From positions 1 through 36,575 of the forward strand of contig JANYAH010000266.1 of the NCBI GenBank assembly GCA_025361425.1: a DNA stretch of 36,575 nucleotides, given 5' to 3'. Position numbers and translations under genes: made by a program. Below, in pieces: positions 2,508 to 26,200 of the stretch; positions within the stretch are counted from its first letter, which is position 1, and every line of letters starts with the position of its first letter. The notes under the pieces were generated by a model, which was not told where the DNA came from, searched no databases, and saw only the letters and a list, made by a program, of their open reading frames with translations. This DNA comes from Candidatus Solibacter sp. Lineage in GTDB: Bacteria; Acidobacteriota; Terriglobia; Bryobacterales; Bryobacteraceae.

Positions 2508-2689
2508 GTTGTCCTTAAGGCTACTACAATGCTTTACACAAGTAACCGGAAACGGCGGTCCCGGAGACCGGCGCTGCACTCACGTTTTCCCCTTTATTGT
2601 TAAGAAGTTTCAATTTATTTTGAGTGTGGAACGTGACATCGGTGGGGGTAACATTCCGGCCGTGGCCTGCGCCTTCCAGTAAGCAACTC

Positions 2690-5600
2690 ATGGTACTCAA
2701 TCGAATCTACACTTATCTCGGGCGGCTCTTGGCTGTCTGGATTGCCGTCGCCGCCCTGATGGCCGCGGAGCACCACGGCACCATCAAATCCGGCGGACTC
2801 CCCGTCCCCGGCGCATCGGTTACCGCCACTAAAGGCGACAAGAAACTAGCCACCACCACCGATGAGAACGGCCGGTATGCGTTCGCCGACCTGGCCGACG
2901 GTGCGTGGATGATCGAGGTCGAGATGCTGGGCTTCGCGAAGCTCTCCAATGAGGTCGGGATCGCCTTCAACGCGCCCGCGCCGGAATGGAATCTCAAGTT
3001 CCTGTCGATGAGCGCCATCACCGCGGTTGCGCCGGCAACACCGGCTCCTGTCGCAACCCAAACGCCAACAGCAGCGGTAGCCGCGCCGAAACCGGCACCC
3101 AACGGCAGCGCCACACGCGGTCAACAGGCGAATGCCGGACTCGGCCAGAACGGCGCCAACGGGCGGCCTTCGCTCCTGCCAGCCAACGGCTTCCAACGCG
3201 TGGACGTGAACTCCTCGGGCGATCTGGCGCCGGCGCCGGAAACCGGAATGGCGGCCAGCGAGATGGCCGACTTGAGCAACAGCGCGGACCCCTCGTTGCT
3301 GGTCAGCGGCAGCGTCAGCCGCGGACTGGATATGCCGCAGGGGAACGATTGGTTCGGCGGCCCGGGCGGGCGAATGGACGGCACGGGCGGTGGCGCCGAA
3401 GGCATGAACGGCATGAACGGCGCGATGGGCATGAACGCCCCCGGCGGTGACGGCGCCGGCGCCGGCGGCCCCCAGATGGGCGGACGCGGTGGTCCGGCCG
3501 GCGGCCGTGGTGGTCCCGGCGGCGGGTTCGGTGGCGGCGGATTCGGCGGCCGTGGCGGTGGCGGTCCCGGCGGTGGACGCGGCGCCGATGGCGGCGGACG
3601 CGGCGGCCCCATGGGCCGCGCCGGCGTGACGTCATTCGGCAACGGGCGTAGGGACCGGCGCATGCAGTACAACGGCAACGCTGCCTTCACCCTGGACAAT
3701 TCCGCTCTGGACGCGCAAAGCTATTCCATCAACGGCCAGAATACCGCCAAGCCCGCCTATGCCAAAGGGCGCGGTAGCTTCATGTTCGGCGGACCTTTGA
3801 AGATCCCGAAATTGCTCGACGGACAGAAGGGCACCTTCACCCTCAACTACCAGTTGGCACGCTCGCGCAACGGCACCACGACCACGCAGACCATGCCCAC
3901 TCTGTTGGAACGTACGGGAGATTTTTCGCAGTCCGTTGGCGCGCAGGGTCCGGTGACCATTTTCGATCCCCTGACCGGCAGTCCGTTCCCCGGCAACATG
4001 ATCCCGGCCAACCGCATCAATCCGGTGTCGCTGGGCTTGCTCAAGTACTATCCGAACCCCAATGCCCCGGGCTATAAGCAGAATTATCAGGCGCCCATCA
4101 CGACGGTGAACAACAGCGACAACCTGAATTCGCGTCTCAACCAGACCATCTCCAAGAAGAACCGGTTAAGCGGAGGAATCGGCTACATGGGCAGCAATAA
4201 CACCACGCCCAACCTCTTCAATTTCGTGGACACCGGCACCGGGCGCAACATCACGGCGAACGTGAGTTGGGGCCACAACTTCACCTCTCGCGTAATCAAC
4301 AATCTGCGCTATAACTTCAGCCGCTCGCGCAGCCTCTCCTCGCCATTCTTCGCGAATAGGGAGAACGTGGCCGCGGCGCTTGGCATCACCGGTACCTCGC
4401 AGGCCCCTCAGAACTGGGGCCCGCCCAGCCTTTCCTTCACCAACTACGCCGGACTCAGCGACGGCGCCGCTTCGCTCACGCGCAACCAAACCAGCGGGGT
4501 CGGCGAGAGCCTTATCTGGGTCAAGGGCGTACACAACATGACTTTCGGCGTGGACTACCGCCGCCAGCAGATCAACCGTGCCAGCGACCCGAACGCGCGC
4601 GGCCAATTCACCTTTACCGGTGCCAGCACCGCCGACCTCGTCAACGGCATAGCCTCCACGGGAACGGGTTTCGATTTCGCCAGTTTCCTGATCGGCCGGC
4701 CCGACACCAGTTCCTTGCGCTATGGCAACAGCAACCTCTATTTCCGCACTGCCAATTACGACGTCTACATGACCGATGACTGGCGCTTGAGCCAGAAGTT
4801 CTCCCTCAACTTCGGCGTCCGCTGGGACTACGCAACCCCGATCACCGAGTTGTATAACCGGCTGGTGAATCTGGACGTGGCGCCGGGATATGCGGCTATC
4901 GCGCAAGTGCAGCCCGGACAATCCGGACCCTACTCGGGCGCGCTGCCAGCCTCGCTGGTCAAACCGGATAAAAACAATATCTCTCCGCGCATCGGTTTCG
5001 CCTGGCGGCCCATTCCCAAGAAGTCCATGGTGGTACGCGGCGGTTACGGCACCTATTACAACAGCTCGGTGTACAACACCATCGCCAACAATATGGCGCA
5101 GCAGCCGCCGTTTGCCCAGTCTTTCAATGTAGCCACTTCCTCGCTGCCGCTAAATGTGCCCTTGACCCAATACTTCTCCTATATTGCGGGACAGAATCAG
5201 CTCACCAACACCTACGCCATTGACCCCAACTATCGCATCGGCTACGCGCAGATGTGGCAGATCTCCGTACAGCAGGATTTGGGTCACTCGCTGGTCGGTA
5301 CCTTCACTTATAACGGCACCAAAGGTACGGGATTGGACCAGACCATCCTACCCAATTCAGCGCCTTCCGGTGCCAAGGCCAACGGACTCCCCTCCGGTTA
5401 TCTCTACGAGCAGTCCAATGGAAATTCCATTTACCATGGCGCCACCTTCCAATTGATGCGGCGCTTCCGCAACGGCGTCTCGGCCAACGCCAACTATACC
5501 TACTCCAAGGCCATCGACAACGCGGTGCAAGCGCAGAACTACCTCGATACCTCGGCCGAGCGCGCGCGTTCGAGCAGCAGCCGGCCACACGTATTGAACT

Positions 5601-6118
5601 TGAACTGGCAGTACAGCACGGCCGTGGGCCGGGGCGGCGGCATGCTGATCAACGGATGGAAGGGCGCCTTGCTGAAAGACTGGACGCTCACCAACTCCAT
5701 CGGCGTAGGCAGCGGAATGCCGTTGACGCCCACAGTGGGCGGCGTGCGCTCTACCACCACGGGTACCGGCATCACCGGCAGCCTGCGCGCCGACGCCACC
5801 GGGTTGCCGGTCAACGCCGCACTCGCGGGCCAGCCGTTCAACTACCTGGCCTTCGCCATTCCGGCGGCCGGCCAGTGGGGCAACGCCGGCCGCAATACCA
5901 TCACCGGGCCCATGCAATTTAGCCTGAATGGCGGTCTCAGCCGCACCTTCCGGCTGACCGAGCGCAGGAGCGTCGATCTGCGCTTCGACGCGGCCAACGC
6001 ACTCAACCATGTCACATTCCGCAGCTTCAACACCACCATCGGCAGCAACAACCTGGGGCTGCTTTCCAATCCGAGCAACATGCGCAGCTTGACGGCCACC
6101 CTGCGTTTCCGCTTCTAA
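2690..6118 (+). CDS. TonB-dependent receptor with carboxypeptidase-regulatory-like domain and Gly-rich linker
   Basis: An outer-membrane receptor of 1142 residues of the large acidobacterial Oar-like type. I start at ATG 2690, which gives a signal peptide (MVLNRIYTYLGRLL...ALMAAE); the longer frame to 2624 has no such peptide. A CarboxypepD_reg-like beta-sandwich follows (about residues 25-105, with GLPVPGASVTATKGD), then a Pro/Ala-rich stretch, a Gly/Arg/Met-rich stretch (about 219-317) and the barrel. The barrel segments QNTAKPAYAKGRGSF, FGGPLKIPKLLDG, ERTGDFSQS and FDPLTG are typical of this group. The last residues are LRFRF, a standard beta-signal with terminal Phe. The usual plug motifs (LPLNGRN, a plug strand before the barrel) are not visible where the Gly-rich region sits. 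Divergent from GH97 and 53 bp before the VWFA gene. Ligand unknown, possibly an oligosaccharide. Confidence 0.85.
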   Translation: MVLNRIYTYLGRLLAVWIAVAALMAAEHHGTIKSGGLPVPGASVTATKGDKKLATTTDENGRYAFADLADGAWMIEVEMLGFAKLSNEVGIAFNAPAPEWNLKFLSMSAITAVAPATPAPVATQTPTAAVAAPKPAPNGSATRGQQANAGLGQNGANGRPSLLPANGFQRVDVNSSGDLAPAPETGMAASEMADLSNSADPSLLVSGSVSRGLDMPQGNDWFGGPGGRMDGTGGGAEGMNGMNGAMGMNAPGGDGAGAGGPQMGGRGGPAGGRGGPGGGFGGGGFGGRGGGGPGGGRGADGGGRGGPMGRAGVTSFGNGRRDRRMQYNGNAAFTLDNSALDAQSYSINGQNTAKPAYAKGRGSFMFGGPLKIPKLLDGQKGTFTLNYQLARSRNGTTTTQTMPTLLERTGDFSQSVGAQGPVTIFDPLTGSPFPGNMIPANRINPVSLGLLKYYPNPNAPGYKQNYQAPITTVNNSDNLNSRLNQTISKKNRLSGGIGYMGSNNTTPNLFNFVDTGTGRNITANVSWGHNFTSRVINNLRYNFSRSRSLSSPFFANRENVAAALGITGTSQAPQNWGPPSLSFTNYAGLSDGAASLTRNQTSGVGESLIWVKGVHNMTFGVDYRRQQINRASDPNARGQFTFTGASTADLVNGIASTGTGFDFASFLIGRPDTSSLRYGNSNLYFRTANYDVYMTDDWRLSQKFSLNFGVRWDYATPITELYNRLVNLDVAPGYAAIAQVQPGQSGPYSGALPASLVKPDKNNISPRIGFAWRPIPKKSMVVRGGYGTYYNSSVYNTIANNMAQQPPFAQSFNVATSSLPLNVPLTQYFSYIAGQNQLTNTYAIDPNYRIGYAQMWQISVQQDLGHSLVGTFTYNGTKGTGLDQTILPNSAPSGAKANGLPSGYLYEQSNGNSIYHGATFQLMRRFRNGVSANANYTYSKAIDNAVQAQNYLDTSAERARSSSSRPHVLNLNWQYSTAVGRGGGMLINGWKGALLKDWTLTNSIGVGSGMPLTPTVGGVRSTTTGTGITGSLRADATGLPVNAALAGQPFNYLAFAIPAAGQWGNAGRNTITGPMQFSLNGGLSRTFRLTERRSVDLRFDAANALNHVTFRSFNTTIGSNNLGLLSNPSNMRSLTATLRFRF
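3346..3640 (+). repeat. Low-complexity GGC-rich tract coding Gly/Arg/Met-rich linker
   Basis: Within the receptor gene the DNA becomes a degenerate array of GGCGGN units coding FGG, RGG, GGP and MNG-type short repeats, about 98 residues. There is no exact period, so it looks like drifted slippage-prone sequence. It separates the regulatory-like domain from the barrel. Confidence 0.8.
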
Positions 6119-6171: not shown

Positions 6172-8349
6172 ATGCGCGCGATTATCGCCACACTTTTGAG
6201 CGGGCTGCTGGTAGTTTCGGCGCAGCCTCCACAGACGCAACAAGCTACCCAACCGGCAGCGCCCGCCCCGCCCGCTTCGTCCAAGAGCATCGTCAAATTC
6301 GGCGCTACCACCCAGTTGGTGGTCGTCGATGTCACCGTCAACGACAAGAGCGGAAACCCCATCAAAGGTCTCAAGCCGGCCGATTTCAACATCACCGAAG
6401 ACGGCAAGAAACAGGACATCAAGATCTTCACCTATCAGGAACTGGAAGAGACCGCGACCGTTCCGGAACCGGTGCCCGCCAGACCGCCCACGCCCACGCC
6501 CAAGGCTCCGGACGCACCCCCAACCGTGGCTCTCCCGGTGGTGAAATCTGTCACCGCAAGCCAGATTGCGCCCGCCAAACCCGGCGAAGTGAAATATAAA
6601 GATCGGCGCCTGCTGGTGATGTTCTTCGACATGACGAGCATGCCGATTCAGGACCAGATCCGCGCGCAGACGGCGGCCCAGAAGTTCCTCAAGACCCAGA
6701 TGACGCCCTCGGACCTGATGGCCGTCATGACGTTTTCCAGCGACCTGAAGGTGCTGCAGGATTTCACCGACGATCGCGACGCCCTGGCCAAGGTGTTCAA
6801 GGGCCTGACCCTCGGCGAGGGCAGCGATCTCGCGGTGGACGGTTCCACCGGCGCCGATAACGAGGAAGACACCGGCGCGGCGTACACCGCCGACGATACC
6901 GAATTCAATATCTTCAATACGGACCGCAAACTCGCGGCGCTCGAATCGGCGGCGCGTATGCTCGGCGCACTTCCCGAAAAAAAGGCACTCGTCTATTTCG
7001 CCAGCGGCGTCAGCAAGACCGGCGTGGACAACGAAGCCCAATTGCGCGGGACCATCAACGCGGCCATCCGCAACAACGTCGCCTTCTTCCCCATCGACGC
7101 CCGCGGCCTGGTGGCCACGGCGCCTTTGGGCGACGCCACCAAGGCGTCAGCAGGCGGCGGCGGGATGTACTCCGGCAGTTCGGCGCGCTCGCAGCAATCC
7201 AGTTCCCAGAGGTCGCAGGACACGCTCTACACGCTGGCCGCGGACACTGGCGGCAAGGCGCTGCTGGACAACAACGATCTCGGATTGGGAATCGTGCAGG
7301 CGCAGAAGGAAATCTCCAGTTATTACATCCTGGGCTACTATAGCGCCAACGACAAGCTGGACGGCCATTACCGGCGCATTAAATTGCAGCCGGCCGCGCT
7401 ACTTCAGGCGAAAATCGGCAAGCTCGACTACCGGCAGGGCTACTTCGCCGGCAAGGAATTCGGCAAATTCAACTCTACGGACAAGGAACGCCAGTTGCAG
7501 GAAGCGCTCATGCTGGGCGACCCGATGACGGACCTTTCCGTGGCCCTCGAAGTGGACTACTTCCGGATGGCGCGCGACCGCTATTTCGTGCCCGTCACGG
7601 TGAAAATCCCAGGCTCCGAATTGGAACTGGCGCACGGTAAGGGCGTAGAGAGCACCAAGCTCGATTTCATCGGCGAAGTGCGCGATTCCAAGGGCGCGGT
7701 GCAAGGCAACGTCCGCGACTATCAAGAGATCAAGCTGAGGGGCGAAACCTTGGGCCAACTCTCCAAGCGCACACTGGCGTACGACACGGGCTTCACTCTG
7801 CCGCCGGGCAGCTACACCCTGAAATTCCTCACGCGCGAAAACGAAACCGGCAAGATGGGAACCTTTGAAACCAAGTTCGTGGTTCCGGATCTGACGACGC
7901 AGGTGAAGTATCTGCCCATTTCGAGCGTGGTGCTGAGCAATCAGCGGCAGAATCTCAGCACGGCGCTGGCGACGGCGGAGAAAGATAAAAAGCTGCTCGC
8001 CCAGAACCCGTTGGTGCAGGACAACCAGAAACTGGTGCCCAGCGTAACGCGCGTATTCAAGCAGGGACAGGAGATGTTCGTGTTCCTACAAGCCTACCAG
8101 CCCGACGCGCAGACCACGCAACCGCTGGTAGCCAGCGTGAGCTTCTATCGCGGCAAAGTGAAGGCCTTCGAAACCGCCCCGCTACAGATCACCGAAGGGC
8201 TGGACGCTAAGACCAAAGCCCTCCCCATACGCTTCAGCGTGCCGCTGGGTAAATTGCAGCCCGGCCGCTATACCTGCCAGGTAAGCGTGCTGGATCCCCA
8301 GGCACAGAAATTCGCCTTCTGGCGCGCCCCCATCGTCATGGTGCCGTAA
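6172..8349 (+). CDS. Acidobacteria-type VWFA-related secreted protein
   Basis: This 725-residue protein matches the VWFA-related acidobacterial family (the group described by TIGR03436). A signal peptide (MRAIIATLLSGLLVVSA) is followed by a Pro/Ala/Gln linker and then a beta-domain with VVVDVTVNDKSGNPIKGLKPADFNITEDGK, the family hallmark. The von Willebrand A domain runs from about residue 145 to 400. Where a canonical MIDAS has DxSxS, this protein has D153-M-T-S-M, so metal binding may be changed. The C-terminal half (400-725) is beta-rich with no motif I know. GAAGGAAAG lies about 12 bases before the ATG. The short spacing after the receptor gene suggests co-transcription, and the protein may work at the cell surface with that receptor. 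Family call firm; molecular role unknown. Confidence 0.85.
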   Translation: MRAIIATLLSGLLVVSAQPPQTQQATQPAAPAPPASSKSIVKFGATTQLVVVDVTVNDKSGNPIKGLKPADFNITEDGKKQDIKIFTYQELEETATVPEPVPARPPTPTPKAPDAPPTVALPVVKSVTASQIAPAKPGEVKYKDRRLLVMFFDMTSMPIQDQIRAQTAAQKFLKTQMTPSDLMAVMTFSSDLKVLQDFTDDRDALAKVFKGLTLGEGSDLAVDGSTGADNEEDTGAAYTADDTEFNIFNTDRKLAALESAARMLGALPEKKALVYFASGVSKTGVDNEAQLRGTINAAIRNNVAFFPIDARGLVATAPLGDATKASAGGGGMYSGSSARSQQSSSQRSQDTLYTLAADTGGKALLDNNDLGLGIVQAQKEISSYYILGYYSANDKLDGHYRRIKLQPAALLQAKIGKLDYRQGYFAGKEFGKFNSTDKERQLQEALMLGDPMTDLSVALEVDYFRMARDRYFVPVTVKIPGSELELAHGKGVESTKLDFIGEVRDSKGAVQGNVRDYQEIKLRGETLGQLSKRTLAYDTGFTLPPGSYTLKFLTRENETGKMGTFETKFVVPDLTTQVKYLPISSVVLSNQRQNLSTALATAEKDKKLLAQNPLVQDNQKLVPSVTRVFKQGQEMFVFLQAYQPDAQTTQPLVASVSFYRGKVKAFETAPLQITEGLDAKTKALPIRFSVPLGKLQPGRYTCQVSVLDPQAQKFAFWRAPIVMVP

Positions 8350-8383
8350 CATCTACTGAGAAAGGGATCTCTACCCGACGCAC

Positions 8384-10060
8384 TCAATATCGGCCTTTGG
8401 ATTCCTCGCTGGCTTGCGGGGGCGCCTGCGCGGGCACTTCGACCGGCCTCTGTAAGATTCGCAGACCGGTCTTACTATCGTGGAACGTGAGCGGCTCTAA
8501 CGGAGCGCGCACAACCTCGAGCTCCCGGAAGATGTTTGCCACCGCCAAGTCGAGCCCTCGACTTCCACCTGTGATTCCATCGAGCGCCTCCACATAATGC
8601 TGGGTGGCGTGCGCCAGAGCCCGCACAACGGCGGGATTCGGGTTGGGGCGGTTCTCGTCCTCAACCAATTGGTGCGCCAGTAACTTTACCGTCTGAGTGA
8701 CGACGCCAAGCTCCTTGATGTTGCACGCCGCCACGTCGCGGCTCCACGCCCCCGACATGGCGTATCGACGTGTGAGCATTGTAGCCTTATCGGTGACAGA
8801 GGTCGGGATATCGCCACCAACGAGTGACTCCACGGCGCTCAGCGAGATCGTGAGGGTTCCATTGCCGGGAAAGGCCTGGTTGAAGATGTTTAGCGTGCTT
8901 GTGAATCCGGAAGAGCTAATTAGATACTTCACGGGTAGGTTCACCATCACGGCAGGCTCACCGATACCGGGCACCGTGTCCGTGACGATCATCGGCACAG
9001 TGGTAAATTGCGGGGTGTTCGCGTTGTTTAAGACAACGCCGTTGAACGCCCACTTGAATGTCGGCCGCGCGAAGCCCACCGCCCCACCGGACAGCGTGAG
9101 TTGAGAGGATACGTTTACGTTGTGGTAGAAGTAAATGTTTGGTGGGCACATTGGACCCGGCTGCAGCTTGATTGATAGCGCCTCAAGGTCCTGCACGGCC
9201 TTCAACTCGGCTTCGGAGGGGCTGAAGCTGACGCTGCGCTGCTTGCGATCCCGTAGGGGAAACAAGTTGTCGCGAACCGGGACGAATGGCTGACCCGTCG
9301 GTAGGTGCGCTTGCAGCAGGTCGGTGAACTCTTTATACGCTGACGCTCCTGGTCGGCCGGTCAGCGTCGATAACACACTGGCCAATGACTTCTTGTTGAT
9401 CCCGGGAATCGCGAGGACTTGAATGTTCCCGGCAGCGGCGACTATCTGCTCGAACGAGAACCCAAGTTGGTAGCGCAGGTAGTTGAGGAACAGCACCGCG
9501 CACCCATAAGACAGTGGGTTACGGTCATTTTCTTCGCTATTAGTTATGAAGTCTGGGCGCGATCCCTTCAGCCAGGCACTAATGCGGGGTCCTGAACCCG
9601 TGCCGTAGTATCCCGTCGGATGGAGCGTCTCCGCGGCCAGTATCGACAAGCCCTCCCCCATGCTGTTGCCCCTATCCCAGGCGCTCACGCTGAACTCCAT
9701 CAGGATTTCGGCCAGCTCCGCCACAAAGAGCATCCGCGCCATCTCGTCGCGTAAGGTCGCGCTGGCCGTGCCGCCCGGCGGCGCGTACGTGCCGTTGATT
9801 TCCATTTGTGACGACTGGGAAGTGGTGTAACCGGTGTTACTCGCGCCCCCCAAGTGCTTGCCCGCCGAGACGAGCACCATAATTCCGAATGGACTGTTGT
9901 CGAAGTTGCAGGAGAACCACCCTTCGAGCGCCTTGAGATCGTTTTCGCAGCTGTCGCTAATGGCTTTCGCGCGCGCTACCGTATCGGCGTCATCTGCTCC
10001 CGTCATAATTAGGAAGTGTCTCGACAACACCCATCCAGACTCAATCGCTATGTCAGGCAT
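8384..10060 (-). CDS. Unknown protein; N-terminal half resembles a degenerate zinc-metallopeptidase domain
   Basis: Predicted length is 558 residues. I choose ATG 10060 (MPDIAIESGW) because AGGAG lies five bases upstream; a start at 10084 lacks this. There is no signal peptide. The N-terminal half has the order seen in peptidase-MA-like gluzincins: SRHFLIMTG strand, a helix/strand core, a helix DEMARMLFVAELAEILMEF where HExxH would be expected, then GNSMGEGLSILAAE in the place of the NEGLA motif. The two histidines are absent (AELAE), so zinc hydrolysis as usual is unlikely. GCAVLFLNYLRYQLGFSF is another marked segment. The second half is beta-rich (CPPNIYFYHNVNVSS to about residue 430) followed by helices. 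Base composition is visibly more A/T-rich than in neighbouring genes. It converges on the VWFA gene with 34 bp between stops. Gene call good; fold an inference. Confidence 0.75.
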   Translation of the reverse strand: MPDIAIESGWVLSRHFLIMTGADDADTVARAKAISDSCENDLKALEGWFSCNFDNSPFGIMVLVSAGKHLGGASNTGYTTSQSSQMEINGTYAPPGGTASATLRDEMARMLFVAELAEILMEFSVSAWDRGNSMGEGLSILAAETLHPTGYYGTGSGPRISAWLKGSRPDFITNSEENDRNPLSYGCAVLFLNYLRYQLGFSFEQIVAAAGNIQVLAIPGINKKSLASVLSTLTGRPGASAYKEFTDLLQAHLPTGQPFVPVRDNLFPLRDRKQRSVSFSPSEAELKAVQDLEALSIKLQPGPMCPPNIYFYHNVNVSSQLTLSGGAVGFARPTFKWAFNGVVLNNANTPQFTTVPMIVTDTVPGIGEPAVMVNLPVKYLISSSGFTSTLNIFNQAFPGNGTLTISLSAVESLVGGDIPTSVTDKATMLTRRYAMSGAWSRDVAACNIKELGVVTQTVKLLAHQLVEDENRPNPNPAVVRALAHATQHYVEALDGITGGSRGLDLAVANIFRELEVVRAPLEPLTFHDSKTGLRILQRPVEVPAQAPPQASEESKGRY

Positions 10061-10502
10061 CGCATCTCCTTCAACGTGGGTCAACTGCCAACTGGAGGGC
10101 GGTCAACAATTCGCGAACATCGGACTTTGGAGTTTCCGTGCCGGAATCCAGCATGGCTCGGAACGCGTTACACTCCGACAAACACAGCCAGGAATATATC
10201 AAACCTTACGTGGGCTGTCTGTGCGATTCTGAACATTCCACATAAGACATCGCTCGACGACGAGTTTGTCTATGTCACGCCTGAGGCGCGGCGCGCCAGA
10301 CCCGCTGTACTTAGAAACCACGCAACAATAACTTTCCAGGCACCGACGTGACGCAGCCTCTCAGTCTTCCGCGTCCCCCGCTCTGCGGGACGCCCTTTGG
10401 AGCACGTCTGGCAAGCATCCCGATGAGTCGGGACGCGGCCGGCACGGGTGCCGGCGCCTCATAGCCGACGCAGCCGATGTGAAGTTCTTATTGCGTGGTT
10501 GC
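10061..10502. other. Intergenic region between the 50-aa and 558-aa genes; no gene seen
   Basis: About 440 bases. Plus-strand frames here (for example 10016-10351) overlap the 558-aa gene start and have low-complexity, non-family translations, so I do not call them. The part nearest the 50-aa gene holds three consecutive hairpins (10371-10455). The rest (10061-10370) is AT-richer and presumably carries the leader and promoter of the 558-aa gene; TATATT on the minus strand near 10200 is a possible -10, without a convincing -35. Confidence 0.5.
10371..10455 (-). terminator. Cluster of three hairpins downstream of the unknown operon
   Basis: GCGTCCC (10371-10377) pairs with GGGACGC (10387-10393), extended inside by GC/GC with a two-base bulge. 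TCCCGA (10418-10423) pairs with TCGGGA (10428-10433). GCCGGCAC (10438-10445) pairs exactly with GTGCCGGC (10448-10455). Three stems in 85 bases after the minus-strand stop at 10503 would make a strong transcript end or RNA-stabilising structure. No clear T-run is present, so Rho-independent termination is only an inference; a dispersed repeat cluster is the alternative. Confidence 0.45.
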
Positions 10503-10655
10503 TTAGTGCGTCGTAAAGGCACGGGGAGCCCGCCACCGTCGGCGATAAGCTGCGATCGAGGCAAGAATTAAGACAGGAATCGCCACGAGAATGAGCTCCG
10601 CTGCGCCAGAGCCCGCGTCGGGAGAAAAGCCGAAGATGCGTTCGATGAAATCCAT
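10503..10655 (-). CDS. Small single-pass membrane protein (50 aa)
   Basis: A short frame starts at ATG 10655, eight bases after the TGA of the 422-aa gene, with AGGTGAG overlapping that stop as a ribosome site, and ends at TAA 10503-10505. The 50 residues split neatly into an acidic/amphipathic N-terminus (MDFIERIFGFSPDAGSG), one hydrophobic helix (about residues 18-37, ELILVAIPVLILASIAAY) and a strongly basic tail (RRRWRAPR), predicting N-out/C-in topology by the positive-inside rule. Spacing, ribosome site and this layout make a real gene likely. It is the third gene of the tightly packed block starting at 13021. Function unknown; it may be a small partner of the two larger membrane proteins. 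Confidence 0.65.
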   Translation of the reverse strand: MDFIERIFGFSPDAGSGAAELILVAIPVLILASIAAYRRRWRAPRAFTTH

Positions 10656-10663
10656 AGCTCACC

Positions 10664-11932
10664 TCACTTGATTGGGTTGTTGTGTGAATCGTCTGGCTCA
10701 CAGCCGTCGATCTCCGGATGCAGGACCCACTGGTGTTCCGGAGCGCCTTGATTGTCGGCAACTGCCTGCTGCTCGGGTGTCAGCGGATGGACGCCGGGGA
10801 CGTCGACGTGCGGCACCTCGGACAACCGCTCGCACCACCGCTTTTGGTAAGCGCGGAACCCGAGCACGTCGGTGGGCACGTCGTAGCTGTTCACTTTTTG
10901 AACGATGCGCGTGGCATGCACTTCGCTCCATCCACTGTGCCCACCGTCGTAGGCCCAGCGCCCTCGCACAACCACCCAGTCCTTGCTGGCGACGTGTCCG
11001 CCGCCGACCACGGCATCCGTGTCGGCGCCGCCCTTGGCCGCGGCCCATGCGATGCCCACCGCGATCAACGCCAGCGGCGCGAAGATGGTCTGGAGCACGG
11101 TGCAGAGCGCCCGGGTGAACCAGTTGCTCTTGCACCATTTGCCACCAAAGGAGAACGCCTCAATGGCGTCCAGCATGTCGCGAATACGGGTGCCTTCGAA
11201 CTCACAGTGCAACACCGGCACCGGGAACCGTTTCGGATGCTGGACGGCGTTCTTCGGGTCCAGGACGTAATCAGACCACTGCTTCTTCTGGTCCGGGCCC
11301 ACAATGCCGAACCACCCGTAGTCGCGTCCGATAATTTCGGTCCAGGCATGATATTCGCCGCTGTCGACGCCGATCATTGTGCGGAAGTATCCCGTGCCCT
11401 TCAGGTCGCCCTCCGCAGCCACGGGCGGGGGGAGTTCGCGGTGGAGCAAGTCGCCCTGAGGCTGGGTGGTCGCCGCCGCGATGATGTAGTTCTTGTCCTT
11501 CACCGCGTCGGGAAACGCTGCTGTGCTCAGCCCGACGTTGTTCGACGCGAAGCCGCGCATGTTGAAGGGCGCGAGGATGACGTTCATCCCGTAGTCGTTG
11601 TCGACGTCTGCGATCGGGTTCTTGTCCTCGCCGACGTCCTCTGTGTCCGCGACTTCGCCGATCGCGCAGATCGTGTTACCCGCGTCCCCGCAGTTGCAAT
11701 CCGCCGACGTACGGTGCAGGCAGATGAGCTTGCCATTGAGCATGAAGTCCAGCACATAGCGCAAGAGCTGTACGAGCGACGCAATGGCGATCAACGCGCC
11801 GATTCCCGCGGAGAAGAGGGCCGCGATGCCGCCAACCACGGTCAGGGCGCCGAGCGTCGCCAGGATCGCCGTGCTTGGTGTGGAGAAATCGGCGGCTTCG
11901 ACGCACGTTGTGTATTGAGGTCCTTCGGACAT
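10664..11932 (-). CDS. Unknown membrane protein with Cys-rich segment (422 aa)
   Basis: I do not recognise a named family. A long hydrophobic stretch, residues about 20-66, probably forms two membrane helices. A Cys-rich loop with C71, C79, C81 and C89 (LICLHRTSADCNC ... CAIGEV) comes right after. A mixed alpha/beta region (120-260) includes PVLHCEFEGTRIRDMLDAIEAF, then a second hydrophobic helix spans about 275-299 (CTVLQTIFAPLALIAVGIAW). The C-terminal soluble part holds VVRGRWAYDGGHSGWSEVHATRIVQK, a striking W/H-rich motif. AGGGAG overlaps the stop of the upstream gene and sits five bases before ATG 11932, so the two genes are almost certainly co-translated. The 50-aa gene follows after eight bases. 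The Cys cluster could bind metal or form disulfides. Function not assigned. Confidence 0.8.
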   Translation of the reverse strand: MSEGPQYTTCVEAADFSTPSTAILATLGALTVVGGIAALFSAGIGALIAIASLVQLLRYVLDFMLNGKLICLHRTSADCNCGDAGNTICAIGEVADTEDVGEDKNPIADVDNDYGMNVILAPFNMRGFASNNVGLSTAAFPDAVKDKNYIIAAATTQPQGDLLHRELPPPVAAEGDLKGTGYFRTMIGVDSGEYHAWTEIIGRDYGWFGIVGPDQKKQWSDYVLDPKNAVQHPKRFPVPVLHCEFEGTRIRDMLDAIEAFSFGGKWCKSNWFTRALCTVLQTIFAPLALIAVGIAWAAAKGGADTDAVVGGGHVASKDWVVVRGRWAYDGGHSGWSEVHATRIVQKVNSYDVPTDVLGFRAYQKRWCERLSEVPHVDVPGVHPLTPEQQAVADNQGAPEHQWVLHPEIDGCEPDDSHNNPIK

Positions 11933-11941
11933 AGTGGCTCC

Positions 11942-13021
11942 CTAGCTGTGAACGTAAAGCGTGACGCCGCCGACCAGGTCGGCCCCGTCGAGGGCGTTGA
12001 CGTTGATGGGTTGTGTTCCGACGAAACCGTCAGTGGCCGTAATCTTGACTGACACGTCTCGCTGCTCCCCGGCGGCCAGGGTCAACTCACGTCCGCCGGC
12101 AACGTCCACCATCCAGCCCAGAGGTACGGGGTGCAACGCTGTACGATGGCGCGCGTACGGGTCGCGCGTGTCGCCGGCGAGATCGCCGTTGCCGGCCGGC
12201 CGCTTCTCCGGGCAACGGGTCTTGCGAGGGATCGCGTAGGAATCGGCGCGCAGCGCCAGCGTTCGTGGACGCGCCGACGTGTTACGCACCGGAAAGGTGA
12301 ACGTCGCGTTCGGCGAGTTCAACTTCTTCACGTCGACGTTTTCCTGCCCGAGGTTGTTGAGCGGGTTGGCGTCGTCGATCCAGTTGAGTTCCACCTGGAT
12401 GCAGTAATGTCCGGCCGGCGGCGTGGTCCAGGGCATTCGCGCCTCGGCGGGCCCCAGGGGTGAGCCCTTTACCGCGACGTCCACGTAGGTCTCGCCGATG
12501 TAGTTTCGGACGGTGCCCGCGCCGAAGCTGAGATAGTAGAACCGGACGAGCACATTGACGGCTGGCGCATCCGTGGATCCGTTCCACACTGTCGCCCTGA
12601 TTTCGTACGGCGTGCTCGGCGTCAGCGCGTGCGAAGCCACGCCGGCGCCTCCGCCATCGAACAGATGGATGTCGGGGTTGTCCCACGTGATCGCGATGCC
12701 CTTCGACATCAAGTAGAATTGGCTGTAGATCATCGGGTCGGGTCGCTTGTAGGTGCGCGGCGGTATGTCGATGCCGCGCGACGAAGGATGTCCCTCGGAC
12801 CCCGATCCCTTCGGGGCCGCGCCTACCTTCCAGCAGAGCTTGCGAAGCAGACCCTGCGCAAGTCGCATTCCACCCAACAGGCCGAGCAGGACGAGTGCGC
12901 CGAGATACAGGAGGAACAGGCCCCAGAGCCATGCGCGCAGCAGGTACAACAACACCAGCAGGGCCACCGCCAGGGCGATCAGCCAAGCCGGACGGTTCTT
13001 GAGACCGCAAATCAGCTTCAT
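11942..13021 (-). CDS. Membrane-anchored Ig/CARDB-like protein (359 aa)
   Basis: The N-terminus carries two membrane helices (about residues 12-29 and 32-50, very Leu/Trp-rich), then a short Gly/Ser linker and two beta-sandwich-like domains. The first, about 95-235, has the CARDB-type pattern: DPMIYSQ start, PYEIRATVWNGSTDAPAVNVLVRFY, and a conserved-looking NWIDDANPLNNLGQENVDV end. The second (about 240-359) has TFPVRNTSARPRTLALRADSY and LAAGEQRDVSVKITATDG, as in NPCBM/Ig-like C-terminal sandwiches. It looks like a surface or periplasm-facing adhesion/scaffold protein with both helices as anchor. It is first in the minus-strand block; GGGGTGTGGG precedes ATG 13021. The family is not one I can name beyond CARDB-like. 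Confidence 0.75.
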   Translation of the reverse strand: MKLICGLKNRPAWLIALAVALLVLLYLLRAWLWGLFLLYLGALVLLGLLGGMRLAQGLLRKLCWKVGAAPKGSGSEGHPSSRGIDIPPRTYKRPDPMIYSQFYLMSKGIAITWDNPDIHLFDGGGAGVASHALTPSTPYEIRATVWNGSTDAPAVNVLVRFYYLSFGAGTVRNYIGETYVDVAVKGSPLGPAEARMPWTTPPAGHYCIQVELNWIDDANPLNNLGQENVDVKKLNSPNATFTFPVRNTSARPRTLALRADSYAIPRKTRCPEKRPAGNGDLAGDTRDPYARHRTALHPVPLGWMVDVAGGRELTLAAGEQRDVSVKITATDGFVGTQPINVNALDGADLVGGVTLYVHS

Positions 13022-13372
13022 CCCACACCCCCTCGCCTATCGCCACGTTCACTCCACTCCCCGTTACGAGTGCACCCCGCGGGAATGCCCTAACTCCGAT
13101 GAAAGCAGCGACCTTCGCGTAACCTATCTTATGAGCCTTTCTTCCTCTTTGCAACCGCAATCTTGCATGGTTTGCAGGCCGGGAACTGCCTTCGCTTCCG
13201 CATGTATGTTTCCGGTGGATTCCCTCGGTACAACACCACCTTGTTAGCGCATCGTCACCGGCAGTTGGAACATCAGGCCCAACCGTGCCGGCCCGCCGCG
13301 CCGAACTGCCCGTGTAGTTGGTTGGAAAGCTCCTCGCGGCCCCAGGTGTCACGTTGTTATACTGGAATTTCC
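13022..13372. other. Divergent intergenic region upstream of gltX and the unknown block
   Basis: About 350 bases between two divergently read genes. It is AT-richer than the flanks and must hold promoters for both directions. I see a good extended -10 for gltX (separate entry) but no convincing -35/-10 pair for the minus-strand block. No small gene with a credible ribosome site was found. Confidence 0.55.
13355..13363 (+). promoter_or_regulatory. Extended -10 promoter of gltX
   Basis: TGTTATACT at 13355-13363 is an extended -10 (TGn followed by TATACT, one mismatch from consensus), with no obvious -35 at 17 bp. It ends nine bases before the gltX ATG, which would give a 5' leader of only about two to four bases. 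gltX also lacks a clear Shine-Dalgarno, consistent with near-leaderless translation. Confidence 0.45.
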
Positions 13373-14791
13373 ATGCCTAGAGTTCGTTTTGCTCCTTCTC
13401 CCACTGGATTTCTGCACATCGGGAGCGCCCGCACCTACATCTTTAACTGGCTATATGCCCGCCATAACGGCGGCACGATGATCCTGCGGATTGACGATAC
13501 CGACGTCGGCCGCAACACCGACGCCTCCCTGACCTCCATCTTCGAAGGCCTCCGCTGGCTCGGCCTCGGCTGGGACGAGGAGTATAAACAGTCCGACCGC
13601 CTCGCTCTGCATCGCAGCGTGGCGCAGGCGATTTTCGAGAAAGATCTCGCCTACCGCGATTTCACGGCCGCGCAGAGCGGCGATAGCGAGAAATCCGGCG
13701 CCCAGGGGACCTGGCTGTTCAATGCCGGCATGCGCCAACTTTCGCGCGAACAGAGCGACCGCCGTGCCGCCGCCGGCGAGCCGTTCGCCCTGCGCTTCCG
13801 CGTGCCCCACGACCGCATCGGCCACGTGCAATTCTCCGATGCCGTCTACGGCGATCAGGCTAAGGCCTACGCCGATATCGAAGATTTTGCTCTCTTGCGC
13901 AGCGACGGCATGCCGACCTATCACCTGGCCAACTGCGCCGACGATGCCGACCTCCGCATCACCCACATCATCCGCGGCCAGGAGCACCTCTCTAACGCCT
14001 TCAAGCACAAGCTGATATTTGACGCGGTGGGCGCCGAATCACCCACCTTCGCGCACCTGCCGCTGCTCATGGCGCCGGACGGGATGAAGCTCTCCAAGCG
14101 CGTCCACGGCCCCGTGGTCTCTGTGACCACCTATCGCGATGCCGGTTTCCTGCCACAGGCGTTCATCAATTTCCTGTGCCTTCTCGGCTGGTCCCCCAAG
14201 AACGATCGCGAGAAATTGTCGCGCCAGGAGACCGTGGATCTCTTCACTTTGGAAGGCATCAATCGAGCCAACGCCGTGGTCAACTTTACCGAAGAGGACC
14301 CGTTCGACGCCAAGGCGCTATGGCTGAATGCCGAGCACATCCGTTCCCTGCCCCCAAACGAACTGGCCCGCGAGTTGCTGCCGTTCGCGCCGGCCGATCT
14401 GGAAACACTCCGCAAGATCGCCCCGCTGATTCAGGAGCGCATAAAGCTTTTGCGCGACGTGCGGAGCGTGGCCGACTTTTTCTTCGCCGGGCAACTGCCG
14501 CCCTACGATAGCGCCGAGTTGATTCCCAAGAAGGGCGACGCGGCGATGGCGAAGACCGTCCTACTGAAGGCACGCGAGGTGTTGGCCACCGCCGATTTTT
14601 CGCACGACGGCTTGGACGCGGCGCTCCGCGCGGCCAGCGTCTCACTCGGCATCAAGGCAGGGCAAATGTTTGAGCCCGTCCGCGTGGCGGTCTGCGGCCG
14701 CAAAACCGCGCCCCCGCTATTCGGCACCATGGAAGTGCTGGGCCGCGATACCTGCGTGACGCGCATCGCCCAGGCCATCGAAAAGCTATAG
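13373..14791 (+). CDS. gltX: Glutamyl-tRNA synthetase
   Basis: Class I aminoacyl-tRNA synthetase of 472 residues, the usual bacterial GluRS length, charging tRNA-Glu in the cytosol. [17 protein letters not shown] at the N-terminus contains the HIGH-type motif H15-I-G-S, and the KMSKS-type loop is K239-L-S-K-R within [32 protein letters not shown] and the [11 protein letters not shown] segment are strong GluRS signatures, and the C-terminal anticodon-binding helical domain is complete. ATG 13373 is chosen because it begins exactly at the conserved [12 protein letters not shown]; the frame is open further upstream only by chance. glnS follows after six bases, so the pair is an operon. Whether this GluRS is discriminating cannot be told from sequence alone, but the presence of GlnRS makes that likely. 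Confidence 0.97.
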
Positions 14792-20676: not shown

Positions 20677-21774
20677 TTATTGTAGGGCCGGACGCTCCGG
20701 TGGCACCACGGACGTGTGAACCGCCAGGTGGACCGACGTCGCTTTGACCACGGCGGACACGTGCTCGCCCTCGCGCAGCGCCAGTTCCCCGGCGGATTGC
20801 GCGGTGACCATCGCCACCAGCGGAAAACCGCAATCCAGTTCCACACGCGCCAGCGCGCCTTCCGGAATCACCGCGCGCACGCGTCCCGCCAGCCGGTTGC
20901 GCGCACTCGATAACTGATCCATCTCGCGCGTGAGCGCGACGTCCTCGGCGCGGATGCACGCGAAGACCGCCCCGGTCTCGCCGGAATCCACGCACTGTAT
21001 CCGCGCGCCGCCAACCTGCAAGCTGAGCAGCCCGGATTCGCGGCCCACAATTTCAGCCGCCAGCACGTTCTCTACGCCCACCGATTCCGCCACCTGGAGA
21101 TCGGCCGGCCGGCGGAACACCTCCTGTACGGGCCCGGTCTGGCGGATGCGCCCCTCCACCATCACCGCCATCCAATCGCCGAGCGCCACGGCCTCCATGC
21201 GGTCGTGCGTGACAACGATGCTGGGAACGCCACAGGCGAGCAGCATACGCCGCAGTTCGTGGCGCGTGCGAGAGCGGGTGGGCGCATCCAGCGCGGAGAG
21301 CGGTTCATCAAGCAGCAGCAGTTCGGGTTGAGCCGCCAGCGCGCGCGCCAGGGCAACGCGCTGTTGCTGCCCGCCGGAAATCGCGCGCGGCTTGCTGGCG
21401 GCAAGTTCCGCCAGGCCGAACGTGTCCAGCAGCTTGCGGGCGGTCTCGCGGGACGCGGCGTAGGCAACGTTCTCCGCCACCGTCAGATGCGGGAATAGCG
21501 CGTAGTCCTGAAACAAAAATCCGGCCCGGCGTTGCTGCGGTGGCAGATGAATGGCGCGCGCGGCATCGAACCACGGGCGCTGGCGAAATACGATGGATCC
21601 GGCATCGGGCCGCTCCAACCCGGCCAACATTCGCAGCAACGTGGTCTTGCCCGAGCCCGAGGGACCGAAGAGCACCGTGACCGGCGCCTGGCGGAGCGGA
21701 ATACGCAGGTCCGCCTCCACTTCGAAGGCCTTCGACAGCCGCTTGCGGCACTGGCAAATCAGTTGATCGGCCAT
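20677..21774 (-). CDS. modC: Molybdate ABC transporter ATP-binding protein
   Basis: A 365-residue ATPase that powers molybdate import through ModB. Walker A GPSGSGKT is at residues 37-44, the Q-loop Gln near 89, signature ISGGQQQRV at 132-140, Walker B LLLLDE at 152-157 and the switch His at 190. The C-terminal part (about 295-365, [20 protein letters not shown]...) is a TOBE/mop-type domain that binds oxyanion. ATG 21774 ([11 protein letters not shown]) overlaps the end of modB by 16 bases. The frame stays open upstream through modB to 22428, but that extension is the out-of-frame shadow of modB. The length and single mop-like domain fit ModC; sulfate or tungstate transporters are alternatives, made less likely by the ModA/ModB neighbours. 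Confidence 0.92.
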
Positions 21775-22433
21775 ACCGCCCAGATGCGCCGCTGCAACGC
21801 ATAGGTGAGTGCCAGCACCGTGAAGGAGACGCACAGGAGGAATAGCGAAGTGGCCGACGCCGCGGCGTAATTCAGCGCCTGCACGGAATCGTAGATGGAA
21901 ATTGAAACTGTGCGCGTGACGCCAGAGATGTTGCCGCCCACCATCAGCACCACCCCAAACTCGCCCAGCGTGTGGGCGAAGCTGAGGATGGCTCCGGTGG
22001 CGATGCCCGGCAATGAGAGCGGCACGATGACGCGGCGGAAGGTGGCGGCGCGCGACACGCCCAGACACCAGGAAGCCTCGAGGAGTTTGCGGTCCACGCC
22101 GGCAAATGCGGCGGCTACCGGTTGCACGGTAAACGGAAAGCTGTACAGCACGCTGGCCAGTAGAAGGCCCTGGAAGGAGAACGGCAGCATGCCGCCGGTG
22201 AGCTTCGCGTAGAGCGCGCCCAGCGGGCTGCGCGGACCCATGGCCAGCAGCAGGTAGAAACCGAGCACCGTCGGCGGCAGCACCAGGGGCAGCGCCACCA
22301 GCGCTTCCACCAGGAACTTCCATCGCCGTGGGGAAAACGTCAGCCAATAGGCGATAGGCAGACCGAGAGCCAACAGAATCGCCGTGGTGGAAACCGCCAG
22401 TCGTACGCTCAGCCAGATTGCCTGCCAATCCAT
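21759..22433 (-). CDS. modB: Molybdate ABC transporter permease
   Basis: A 224-residue inner-membrane channel with about five helices (AIWLSVRLAVSTTAILLAL, LVALPLVLPPTVLGFYLLLA and so on). PLVLPPTVLGFYLL near residue 50 and the cytoplasmic EAA loop EASWCLGVSRAATFRRVIVPLSLPGI, read in parts, are clear ModB signatures; the loop contacts ModC. SFAHTLGEFGVVLMVGGN is another ModB-type segment. Only one base separates its ATG from the modA stop (TGAtATG), and its end overlaps modC by 16 bases, so modABC is translationally coupled. Confidence 0.94.
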   Translation of the reverse strand: MDWQAIWLSVRLAVSTTAILLALGLPIAYWLTFSPRRWKFLVEALVALPLVLPPTVLGFYLLLAMGPRSPLGALYAKLTGGMLPFSFQGLLLASVLYSFPFTVQPVAAAFAGVDRKLLEASWCLGVSRAATFRRVIVPLSLPGIATGAILSFAHTLGEFGVVLMVGGNISGVTRTVSISIYDSVQALNYAAASATSLFLLCVSFTVLALTYALQRRIWAVWPIN

Positions 22434-22434
22434 A

Positions 22435-23208
22435 TCACTCTCCCGGTACGAAGAAACCGTACTGTTTTAAGATGCGCCGTCCCCCGGCGGAAAGCAGAAA
22501 CGCGCGGAAATTGCGAGCCGCCTTGGAATCGTTCAGTATGATGCCGCCCTGCTCCATGCGCGGATAGGCGTCCAGCGGAACTTCCCAGTAGCGCCCGCGA
22601 CCACGCAGGGGAGGGGCCAGCGCGAGAGACAGCGCGACAATGCCGGCGTCGGCGGCGCCGCTTTCCACAAACTGAAGCGCCTGCGCCACGTTCTCGCCCA
22701 GCACCAGTTTCACCTCCACGCTCTGGTACAGCCCCAGGCTGCGCAACGCGGCCTGCGCGGCGCGGCCGTATGGCGCATGTTGAGGGTTGGCGATGGCGAC
22801 GTGCTTCACCGAGGGCTGGCGCAGCGCCGTCGCCGGGTCGAGCCGAGAAGCCGCCCGCACCCACACCACCAGGCGGCCCATCGCGTAGGTGAATACCGAA
22901 TTCCCCGCCCCGGCGCCAGCGGCTGCCAGTTTGCGCGGGTACTCCACGTCGGCGGAGAGAAATACGTCGAAGGGCGCGCGATTGCCGATTTGCGCAAAGA
23001 AGTTGCCGGAGGAACCATAGGCAATCTGCAATTCGACGGCTGGGTCGACGGCGCGAAACTGCCGCGCGATTTCCGGCATCGCGAAATTCAAGTCCGCGGC
23101 GGCGGCGACAATTATTTTTTGCGAAGCCGGTCGCGGGGCGCATGCCGCGGAGAGAAGGGCAAGCACCAGCAACGTCCGGGTTGTGCCCCGACGCAGGCGC
23201 AACCTCAT
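22435..23208 (-). CDS. modA: Molybdate-binding periplasmic protein
   Basis: A 257-residue solute-binding protein delivering molybdate (or tungstate) to ModBC. The N-terminus MRLRLRRGTTRTLLVLALLSAACA is a signal peptide, possibly lipoprotein-type, with Cys after LSAA (Ser at -3 is unusual). The mature part starts KIIVAAAADLNFAMPEIARQF, the ModA pattern in which the oxyanion is bound by residues of the first loop. YGSSGNFFAQI, FDVFLSADVEYPRKL, and NPQHAPYGRAAQAAL are further family marks. ATG 23208 lies five bases after the stop of the TonB-dependent receptor, and an upstream in-frame extension to 23670 is receptor shadow. Sequence alone does not separate molybdate from tungstate. Confidence 0.93.
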   Translation of the reverse strand: MRLRLRRGTTRTLLVLALLSAACAPRPASQKIIVAAAADLNFAMPEIARQFRAVDPAVELQIAYGSSGNFFAQIGNRAPFDVFLSADVEYPRKLAAAGAGAGNSVFTYAMGRLVVWVRAASRLDPATALRQPSVKHVAIANPQHAPYGRAAQAALRSLGLYQSVEVKLVLGENVAQALQFVESGAADAGIVALSLALAPPLRGRGRYWEVPLDAYPRMEQGGIILNDSKAARNFRAFLLSAGGRRILKQYGFFVPGE

Positions 23209-23213
23209 GCCAC

Positions 23214-26200
23214 TCAAAACTTCACCCGCAGTGCAAGCTCGAAGACTCTGGGATCGCCGGCCTGCGTGATGCTGCCGAACGCCGGGGCGCCGAAACTGCC
23301 GTTCGGCTGGGCGAGCGGCGGCGTGTTGCTCACGTTGAAGGCCTCGGCGCGGACCTCGGCGCCCACGTGATCGCTTAGGCGAAACAGCTTGCCGACCATC
23401 AGGTCCGCGGACTGATATCCCGGCCCACGCACCGGGTTCCGCGAGGCATTTCCGATACTGAACTGACCGGCACCGGTGAAGGCCCCGGTATCGAAGTAGT
23501 GCGCGGTGGAGCGCTGCGACGCCGGCAGCTTTGGGTTTGCCACGAGGAACGGACGCTGGATGCCGAAGCCGAACGCGGCGTTGTAATTGGTGGCCTGCGT
23601 CACCGTCACCGGCATCCCCGATTGCGCCCTGACGATGCCGCCGATCTCCCACCCGCGCCCGAGTTGCCACACGAACCCCGTCGCCATCACGTGCGGGATG
23701 CTGCCAGCGGATTCATCTTTCTCCAAACGCCGATTGTAACTATTGGCCGCCTGGTAGTTCGCCACCGGCCCGGTCAACAACGCCGAGTTGAATACCGAGC
23801 CCGCGTCGTCGATCAGCTTGGAAACCGTATACGACGCGGTCCAGGTAAAGCCGTGCGCCAAGCGCCGCTCCAGGTGCGCCTGGAACGAATGGTATGTCGA
23901 GTTCCCCACGTTGTTGCGGTAGAGCGCTACGGTAGTGAATTCGGGAAAGCGGCGCAACAACTGCTGCCGCGCGACGTTTGGCGCCCCCAGGGAGGACGTC
24001 GCCGGAATCTGCCCGTAGTAAGGGTTGGTGACCGAATCAGTGAGTTGCGTGCCCATCGCCAGCAGTGGCACCGGCAGTTGATTGAGGTTGGTGTCCGGCA
24101 CGCCGAGCCGCGTCAACTTACTGCCCGCATAGCCCAGCGAAACGGCCCAGTTCGCGCCCATGGTTTTTTGCAAGGTGAGATTCCACTGCTGCGCGTATCC
24201 CGAGCCCTGATTCCGCTCGACGCCGAAGACGCCCTGCCCCAGGCCCGAATCGGGACCCGGCGGCGTTATCCGTACGGAAGGCCCCTGCGAGAGTTGGAAC
24301 GCCGGAGTAAGATTATCGAGCGAACTTTGCGTAGCCGTCTGAATGAACGGAAACATCGGCGCGGTGAACGGCGTGGTGATGCCCGACTGCTCGATCCATA
24401 CGAGTCCATAGCCCGCGCGGATGGTGAAGGTATCGCGGATGCTGTACGCAAGCGCGGCCCGCGGTCCGAAATTGTGCTTCTCCAGGTTGCGTGCGGTGTC
24501 GGGAAAATCGAGTTTGCGTGTGCCCAGGTTGAACACCGCCACCTGACGGTCGGCTTCCGTGGATGGGAAATTGAGCGTGTAGCGCAGGCCCAGATTGAGC
24601 GTCAGGCCAGCGGTGACGCGGAAATCGTCCTGCACGAAAGCTTCCGCGACAAGCGCGCGCGGACGCAGTGTGCGCTGCTGGGCGTCCAGCGAAAAATTCT
24701 GCACCGCGCCCAGCAGAAACGAGGCGAAACCGTTGCCGGTGAGTGCCGCGGTGAATTGGAAATCGCCAGTAGGGTTGGGCGGCTGGAGCGCGTCGAGACG
24801 CTGCCGTCGCAGATCGACGCCCAACTTCAAACTGTGCGCGCCGCGGGTGGACGCATAATTGTCGAGCAGTTGCGTGACGGAACTGGTGGCCGTGCCGTTC
24901 GATGCACCGGGCGGTCCGAGCTGTTGAAATCCAGCGACCTCAAACACGGGGAGCACGCCGGCAAATAAGCTGGCCGGGATATTGGGTATTCCGGTCAGCG
25001 ACTGCATGGGCTGAGCGGTATCCAGCGCGTTGACGCGAAAGCCGCGGCGGGTCCAGCCGAAGCGCAGTTGATTGACCGCCGCCGGCGACACCGTCCAGGT
25101 GTGCTCGGCGGTCACTCCATCGGCGCGGGTCAGGGTGTTGGCGTTGGTGGCTGTGGTTAGATTGCCGCTGCCATCGGGCAGGGGCGTCATGGGACGCGCA
25201 TCGTCGCGCAGGAAAGAATAGCGCCCAAAGAAGCGGTGCGCGGTCCAACGGCGATCCAGGCGGGCATCGAATTGATCGGCCCGGCCGGTGTCGGCGCCGC
25301 TGCGGGAATAGTTGTTGGCGGCGGCTTCGGCGCTGGTCGAAGTGAAGACGTTGGGCGCGGGATAGCGGCTCAGCAGGCGCACCGCGGCGGCATCGAAGCG
25401 CGCCGGCGGAATGGTGCGGTTTGGGAACGGAATGCGCGCCGCGCCGGTGGCCGGGTCCGTGATGGCGCTTGCCAACACCCCCTGCCGCTCAAGGCTGGTG
25501 GGCACGGTGCTGAAACGCGTCACGCCGGTGTCGAGGCGCGCGCCCTGGTAGTCCACGAAGAAGAAGGTGCGATTGCGCTTCAGCGGACCGCCCAACACCC
25601 CGCCATAGAGATTGCGCCGGAAGCGCGGCTTAGTACCGGCGGTGGCGAACAGGTTGCGGGCGTTCAGCGCCTCGTTGCGGAAGAACTCCAACAGCGTCCC
25701 GTGCCATTGGTTGCTCCCAGATTTGGTGGCGACCTGGATGACGCCGCCGTTCGAGCGTCCATACTCGGCGGAGTAGCTGTTGGTTTGCACGCGGAATTCG
25801 GCGATCGAATCCAGCACAGGGTAGTAAGCGACTTGCCCCGGTTCGGGTTGCAGCACGCTGACGCCATCGTAAAGGTACTCGCTGGTGCGCGGGCGGCTGC
25901 CGTTGATGCGCGGCAGAAACTGCCCCGGCGGCAGCATGACACCCGGCGCCAAAGCGATCAGCGGGATGAAGTTGCGGCCGTCCAGCGGGAGCGTGCCGGT
26001 GGAATGGCCGTCGATGGCGAATCCCAAGGCGCCGCTCGCGGTCTGCAGCATCGGAGCCGAGGCGGTCACGTCGACGGACTCATTCACATCGCCAAGTGTG
26101 AGGTTCAAGTCGGCGGCCACACGGTCCGCCACATGCAGTTCGATGCCGGTCCGTTGCAGCGTCCGGAAGCCGGCCTTGCGCACGGTCACGCTGTACGCTC

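Follow-up and report, generated by a model that had tools for sequence, protein, structure and literature searches.

Organization of the locus

The window analysed in this study, a stretch of 36,575 nucleotides of Candidatus Solibacter sp. (GenBank assembly GCA_025361425.1), represents one entire contig of 36.6 kb (JANYAH010000266.1) of a genome of 5.32 Mb that is assembled in 377 contigs with 3% contamination. It harbors a block of genes between a VWFA-domain gene on its left (6172–8349, plus strand; acidobacterial-type model TIGR03436, E 4.7e-81) and gltX on its right (13373–14791, plus strand; TIGR00464, E 7.5e-116), and these matches confirmed the flanks named in a first-pass annotation made from the sequence alone. 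Comparison of the window with the corresponding stretches of congeners via blastn and tblastn delimited an extra interval of about 4.98 kb (8350–13327), in which four open reading frames (ORFs) are located, all on the minus strand. Gene A (11942–13021) encodes 359 amino acids (aa) and is the first gene of a pair with gene B (10664–11932, 422 aa), followed by an ORF of 50 aa with one hydrophobic stretch (10503–10655), which is doubtful as a gene. Gene C starts either with ATG at 10060 (558 aa) or with TTG at 10084 (566 aa) and ends at 8384. Between gene C and the other ORFs lies a dispersed repeat of about 200 bp (10309–10507) with 26-nt terminal inverted repeats as arms (10309–10334 and 10482–10507). 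The close spacing of the first three ORFs described at first pass was reproduced, with 9 bp between genes A and B, 8 bp between gene B and the 50-aa ORF, and purine-rich ribosome sites, identified by eye, overlapping the stops of the preceding ORFs.

That none of the four deduced proteins belongs to a family that can be named also held true, since all of them stayed below every curated cut-off in Pfam and NCBIfam. Searches against PHROGs revealed nothing at E < 0.1 and searches against PADLOC nothing at E ≤ 1; a phage or defence origin of the block was rejected, as neither database gave a match below 0.1. PDB sequence searches with the block proteins resulted in nothing useful, and in a narrow literature search no description of the block genes appeared in titles or the opening parts of abstracts.

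The site without the block in congeners

A search for gltX at E ≤ 1e-60 led to its identification in 10 of 13 genomes, namely the genome of the window and 12 relatives, and its surroundings were compared for eight of the relatives, among them five congeners. In three of these five (G001, G003, and G006), the orthologues of the VWFA gene and gltX are directly adjacent, so that universal syntenic presence of the block in the lineage was not seen. At the nucleotide level, the alignment with G001 stops at window position 8348 and restarts at 13328, with G001 itself moving only from 8986 to 8991. The alignment with G003 jumps from 8344 to 13329 as G003 moves from 1591 to 1649, and that with G006 from 8348 to 13354 as G006 moves from 10513 to 10589. 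From the VWFA stop to the gltX ATG, the window has 5,023 bp, as compared with 48 bp in G001 and 93 bp in G006 (the VWFA stop of G003 is differently placed). The start of gltX, with the arrangement TATACT-N9-ATG, is unbroken beside the block. In congeners G004 and G007, the upstream side of gltX is occupied by different neighbours, without the block; because the sequence differs at this place, the VWFA–gltX junction is not shown by these two. Three further congeners stood outside the junction comparison: in G008 the gltX sequence is divided among contigs, and for G002 and G005 the gltX search at 1e-60 was negative. Genes A, B, and C were undetected in all eight congeners (completeness 79–99%).

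Based on the adjacency of VWFA and gltX without the block in three of five congeners and on the lack of detectable A, B, and C in eight of eight, the block appears to be a lineage-specific insert, and its acquisition, as proposed at first pass, is supported.

The gene pair A–B

The gene A protein revealed an N-terminal hydrophobic stretch (residues 9–55) and a C-terminal end with weak similarity to NEW3 (PF10633) and Fn3-like (PF06280) domains. Its best Pfam matches, fn3_5 (E 0.081) and NPCBM_assoc (E 0.13), were below cut-off (12.9–14.1 bits), while its homologue in G478, a genome of another genus of the same family, matched NPCBM_assoc, i.e., NEW3, at E 9.5e-5 with 23.0 bits, where the cut-off is 24.4. 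CARDB was not matched by gene A or its homologue in Pfam. Thus, from the earlier description of this protein as Ig/CARDB-like, a sub-threshold NEW3/Fn3 likeness was retained and the CARDB part was not. Unlike described NEW3 and Fn3-like domains, the gene A protein stays under all curated cut-offs, carries an N-terminal hydrophobic stretch, and is encoded beside a multi-pass partner. This partner, gene B, is a multi-pass membrane protein by hydropathy (hydrophobic stretches at 20–65 and 274–301) with the motifs LHCE(F/I)EG, GRWxYDxxHSGWxExH, and WVLHPxxDGC.

In G478, homologues of A and B adjoin each other in the same order and on the same strand with a gap of 3 bp (contig C295). The A homologue, the 5' end of which is lost at the contig edge, showed 48% identity over the aligned part, and the B homologue 29% over the full alignment and 33% over residues 240–414. 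Among 237 family genomes, gene B was found in just the window genome and G478 (E 8.7e-13 in the latter), and a gene A profile detected full-length matches in the same two genomes, with 19 further genomes displaying partial matches (E at least 8.6e-7), most of which lie in ORFs some 800 aa long. Genes A and B therefore occur together in both genomes that have either of them at full length, and A and B are supported as a gene pair that recurs adjacent in one independent genome.

Outside these two genomes, gene B was absent from the search results for 60 relatives, 395 other genomes of the phylum, plasmids, phages, and viral contigs, and it was not found in GTDB contigs scanned with back-translated patterns. 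For gene A, a single-sequence search gave no match in the 60 relatives and, at a loose threshold of E ≤ 0.1, partial matches in 42 other genomes out of 296 from the phylum (best 1.2e-5). Plasmids and viral contigs gave nothing for gene A, and plasmids nothing for the G478 homologues of A and B.

The two B proteins have in common the residues H242, C243, E244, and E246, further D329, H332, E337, and H339, and finally H405, D409, and C411. They are candidate residues of a site for a metal or ligand, although a comparison of two sequences cannot prove constraint.

Gene C and its family

Relatives of gene C were identified as hypothetical proteins on seven Bradyrhizobium plasmids (about 27% identity over 84%, best E 1e-31), all from samples associated with Acmispon strigosus. 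Within the family, 7 of 236 further genomes were matched, the matches belonging to five genera including its own and some of them being weak. Of 395 further phylum genomes, 10 were matched, from which G096 and G123 were then dropped: the G096 match (L013/L028, E 2e-5) is a xylulokinase-type ORF with FGGY domains, and that in G123 (L014) is doubtful and partial. Both genomes turned up again with weak similarity to the C-terminal region of gene C. The matches in G458, G470, and G627 were left out of closer examination. Phages, GTDB contigs, and viral contigs gave nothing, the GTDB and viral scans reaching only carriers of the back-translated patterns. Gene C was also undetected in G478, the other genome bearing the pair.

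Around the gene C relatives examined (L002, L003, L020–L029, and L130–L133, including two of the seven Bradyrhizobium plasmids, L002 and L003), no convincing relative of A or B was present. The best match of gene B there (L023, E 0.029) was rejected, as it lies in an ORF that we take to be a beta-galactosidase, and for gene A the top hit (L022, E 0.033), a short, low-scoring stretch, was rejected too. Both plasmids examined carry an adenylate/guanylate cyclase gene near the gene C relative.

Members of the family have in common an N-terminal domain of about 270 residues, joined to differing C-terminal parts. Sixteen members were aligned, near-identical pairs included and the near-copies L005, L015, L016, and L017 omitted; most of the 16 are 26–35% identical to the window protein. 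A fragment in G625 (L133), not among the 16 aligned sequences, was matched by the domain profile at E 2.7e-19. Along the domain, xExxE within a helix-like stretch is followed by GEGLS and further on by GCxxLFLxYLxxQL. Glu 115 is present in 14 of the 16, Glu 118 and Glu 136 in 15 each, and the exact GEGLS in 13, with site residues lost in L025 and L027. Glu 136, the Glu of GEGLS, would be the candidate for the third zinc ligand of a gluzincin. Gluzincins are characterized by the pattern HExxH followed by a downstream Glu. The motif order of gene C recalls this pattern of clan MA peptidases and their inactive relatives; however, at the segment A-E-L-A-E (114–118), not one of the 16 members carries His at the first or at the last HExxH position, and neither a consistent Pfam peptidase nor a PDB metallopeptidase was matched. 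Thus, as far as the sequence goes, the metallopeptidase likeness of gene C is one of motif order alone, and a role in binding or as a scaffold is more likely for the protein than proteolysis. A review covers inactive metallopeptidases that act in such ways (PMC11266112).

Hydropathy analysis predicted no membrane segment in gene C. Members of 1,055–1,068 aa (L022, L024, and L132) have additional domains, and a motif HHCIVAQIA or HHCLVAEIA in long members resembles GHYCIQVELN of gene A by eye. One member (L023:8825–11110) harbors a Tachylectin domain (PF14517, E 2.8e-65; assigned from repeated sequence) and no signal peptide evident by eye.

The repeat in the gap and the 50-aa ORF

The gap upstream of gene C had been described as hairpin-rich, and the hairpins belong to an inverted repeat that is widespread in the genome itself. 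A search with positions 10085–10502 against this genome resulted in 46 matches, one of which (C317) fell outside the repeat and was dropped; the remaining 45 correspond to at least 34 places on 31 contigs, the window included and many of them partial, and this count is a lower bound, as 40 of 51 first-look candidates were scored. The 26-nt arms are 85% complementary, and copies share the arms and vary in the middle. No flanking target-site duplication was evident by eye in the window copy and in four others with both arms visible (L069, L073, L076, and L077). Rfam gave no match to the repeat; a known regulatory RNA in the gap was rejected on this ground and because the dispersed repeat accounts for the gap. 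The repeat was not found in plasmids and was unseen in 282 kb of G004 and 170 kb of G001, though at 34 places per 5.3 Mb one or two copies would be expected per sample, so that these two negatives say little. The genome contains two Y1-type transposase genes, and the arms do not appear in their fetched flanks (up to 1.5 kb).

Miniature inverted-repeat transposable elements (MITEs) and repetitive extragenic palindromic (REP) sequences are established types of dispersed repeat. The gap repeat is like them in its length of about 200 bp, its 26-nt terminal inverted repeats, and its many, often partial, copies; it differs from MITEs in that the five inspected copies lack a target-site duplication and that no transposase could be tied to it.

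The 50-aa ORF exists as annotated, but its stop codon (10503–10505) lies inside the right arm of the repeat, and no small hydrophobic ORF was found 3' of the pair in G478 (L082). It may therefore not be a real gene.

Origin and possible function of the block

Overall, our preferred reading, to which we assign a probability of roughly 60%, is that a small insert of composite make-up, specific to this lineage, separates the VWFA gene from the promoter region of gltX. The block would have entered after the species split from the sampled congeners. Since both A and B carry hydrophobic stretches, they are predicted to be membrane proteins and probably form one complex; judged from the spacing of these stretches, their soluble parts probably face the same side of the membrane. 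In A, the beta-sandwich-like end may act as a docking module, and the Asp, His, Glu, and Cys positions common to both B sequences may constitute a working site for metal or ligand binding. Gene C probably arrived separately and would combine a metallopeptidase-like domain devoid of both HExxH histidines with variable C-terminal parts. The junction of the A–B and C parts may have been the landing site of the repeat or may have been marked by it beforehand; the repeat also terminates the 50-aa ORF. In a more specific and rather unlikely version, A and B would be an undescribed two-part membrane system that moves between bacteria as a pair. In it, B would provide a metal-dependent or ligand-binding site next to the membrane, built from its motifs LHCE(F/I)EG and GRWxYDxxHSGWxExH, and the beta-sandwich of A would recruit its partner.

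Several observations weigh against the composite insert and the roles proposed for its parts. No target-site duplication was found at the ends of the block, nor any repeat of more than 8 bp shared between them, and Pfam and NCBIfam gave no integrase or transposase match for the four ORFs. Codon use and guanine-plus-cytosine (GC) content of A and B are host-like. The absence of gene C from G478, an assembly of 93% completeness, is one case only, and the G478 pair itself is situated on a contig of 3,238 bp in a genome with 8% listed contamination, so that the pair relies on a single independent case. For gene C, the domain profile found no PDB metallopeptidase and no consistent Pfam peptidase; AlphaFold2 without an alignment reached a mean predicted local distance difference test (pLDDT) score of 36.1 for gene C and 37.3 for gene B, with no usable structure for either.

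Composition was assessed against 155 genes from 20 contigs of the same genome (GC 62.5 ± 2.8%). The statement at first pass that the 558-aa gene and the gap are AT-richer than their flanks held in a mild form: gene C, with a GC content of 58.8%, is at the 9.7th percentile of the reference genes. In codon score, genes A, B, and C are at the 52nd, 61st, and 17th percentiles, respectively. Thus, the host-like composition of A and B gives no sign of a recent foreign source, and host-like codon use is neither for nor against an old acquisition. It would also suit an ancestral block, in which the family's ancestor already had the pair, possibly along with gene C, and nearly all descendants have lost it, and so would the A and B homologues in another genus of the family and the gene C matches in five genera. 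However, losses would be required in eight of eight congeners and, for gene B, in 235 of the 237 genomes of the family, with the flanks left adjacent in G001, G003, and G006, which makes an ancestral block unlikely. Even less probable, and in our view very much so, is a false join of the block to the contig, through an assembly artefact or contamination. The fragmented, slightly contaminated assembly and the fact that the window is one whole contig would allow for it, but both junctions lie between intact genes, the composition of the block matches the host, and its repeat is present elsewhere in this assembly at no fewer than 33 places.

The first-pass annotation had further proposed a common purpose of the whole block at the membrane. 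For the A–B pair, adjacent in G478 as well, this is supported; for gene C, which has no predicted membrane segment, for the 50-aa ORF, and for the gap it is not supported. One could still imagine a single acquired module in which all four genes act together at the membrane and the 558-aa protein is a soluble partner of the pair, as the four ORFs share one strand within one extra interval and A and B recur as a pair. Nevertheless, gene C is undetected in the only other genome bearing the pair, and its relatives lack the pair wherever their surroundings were examined. About 440 bp containing the dispersed repeat separate gene C from the rest, and its composition is somewhat unlike that of A and B. 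A promoter-like site also precedes gene C, but two such sites were found where 1.6 are expected by chance. Though the genomes are few, this evidence speaks against one purpose for the pair plus gene C, the 50-aa ORF, and the gap; the block is probably not one four-gene module, and we regard a joint action of all four genes as improbable. For gene C by itself, an active metallo-enzyme with a carboxylate site (xExxE plus the Glu of GEGLS) replacing HExxH would account for the three acidic positions being kept in 14, 15, and 15 of 16 mostly distant members. The loss of site residues in L025 and L027 and the lack of a fold demonstrable by PDB profile search or single-sequence model argue against such an enzyme, which we likewise consider rather unlikely.

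Returning to the composite insert, its setting fits what the consulted part of the account of the Solibacter usitatus Ellin6076 genome reports, namely horizontal gene gain and numerous short repeats (PMC3174227), though the block is not described in that part and no mobility gene was found in the block. The block represents a clean case of genes of unknown family gained between housekeeping genes, with both neighbours intact. Moreover, two protein groups that reach no curated Pfam or NCBIfam cut-off have become recognisable, i.e., the A–B membrane pair and the N-terminal xExxE/GEGLS domain. With the hairpins assigned to a dispersed repeat and gene C known from places lacking the pair, annotation of the block as a single four-gene operon is not advisable.

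Further features of the window

The TATACT box upstream of gltX is located 9 bases 5' of the ATG (window 13358–13375), and the same spacing was identified in all six genomes compared (window, G001, G003, G004, G006, and G007). This short and conserved distance suggests that the gltX transcript is leaderless or nearly so. Elsewhere in the window, a GH97 glycosidase gene (444–2579) stands beside a gene (2624–6118) for a protein with a carboxypeptidase-regulatory-like domain and an outer-membrane barrel, and the region 21759–27547 harbors a molybdate transporter permease gene near genes for a second outer-membrane barrel protein and a helix-turn-helix protein with a PBP-like domain.

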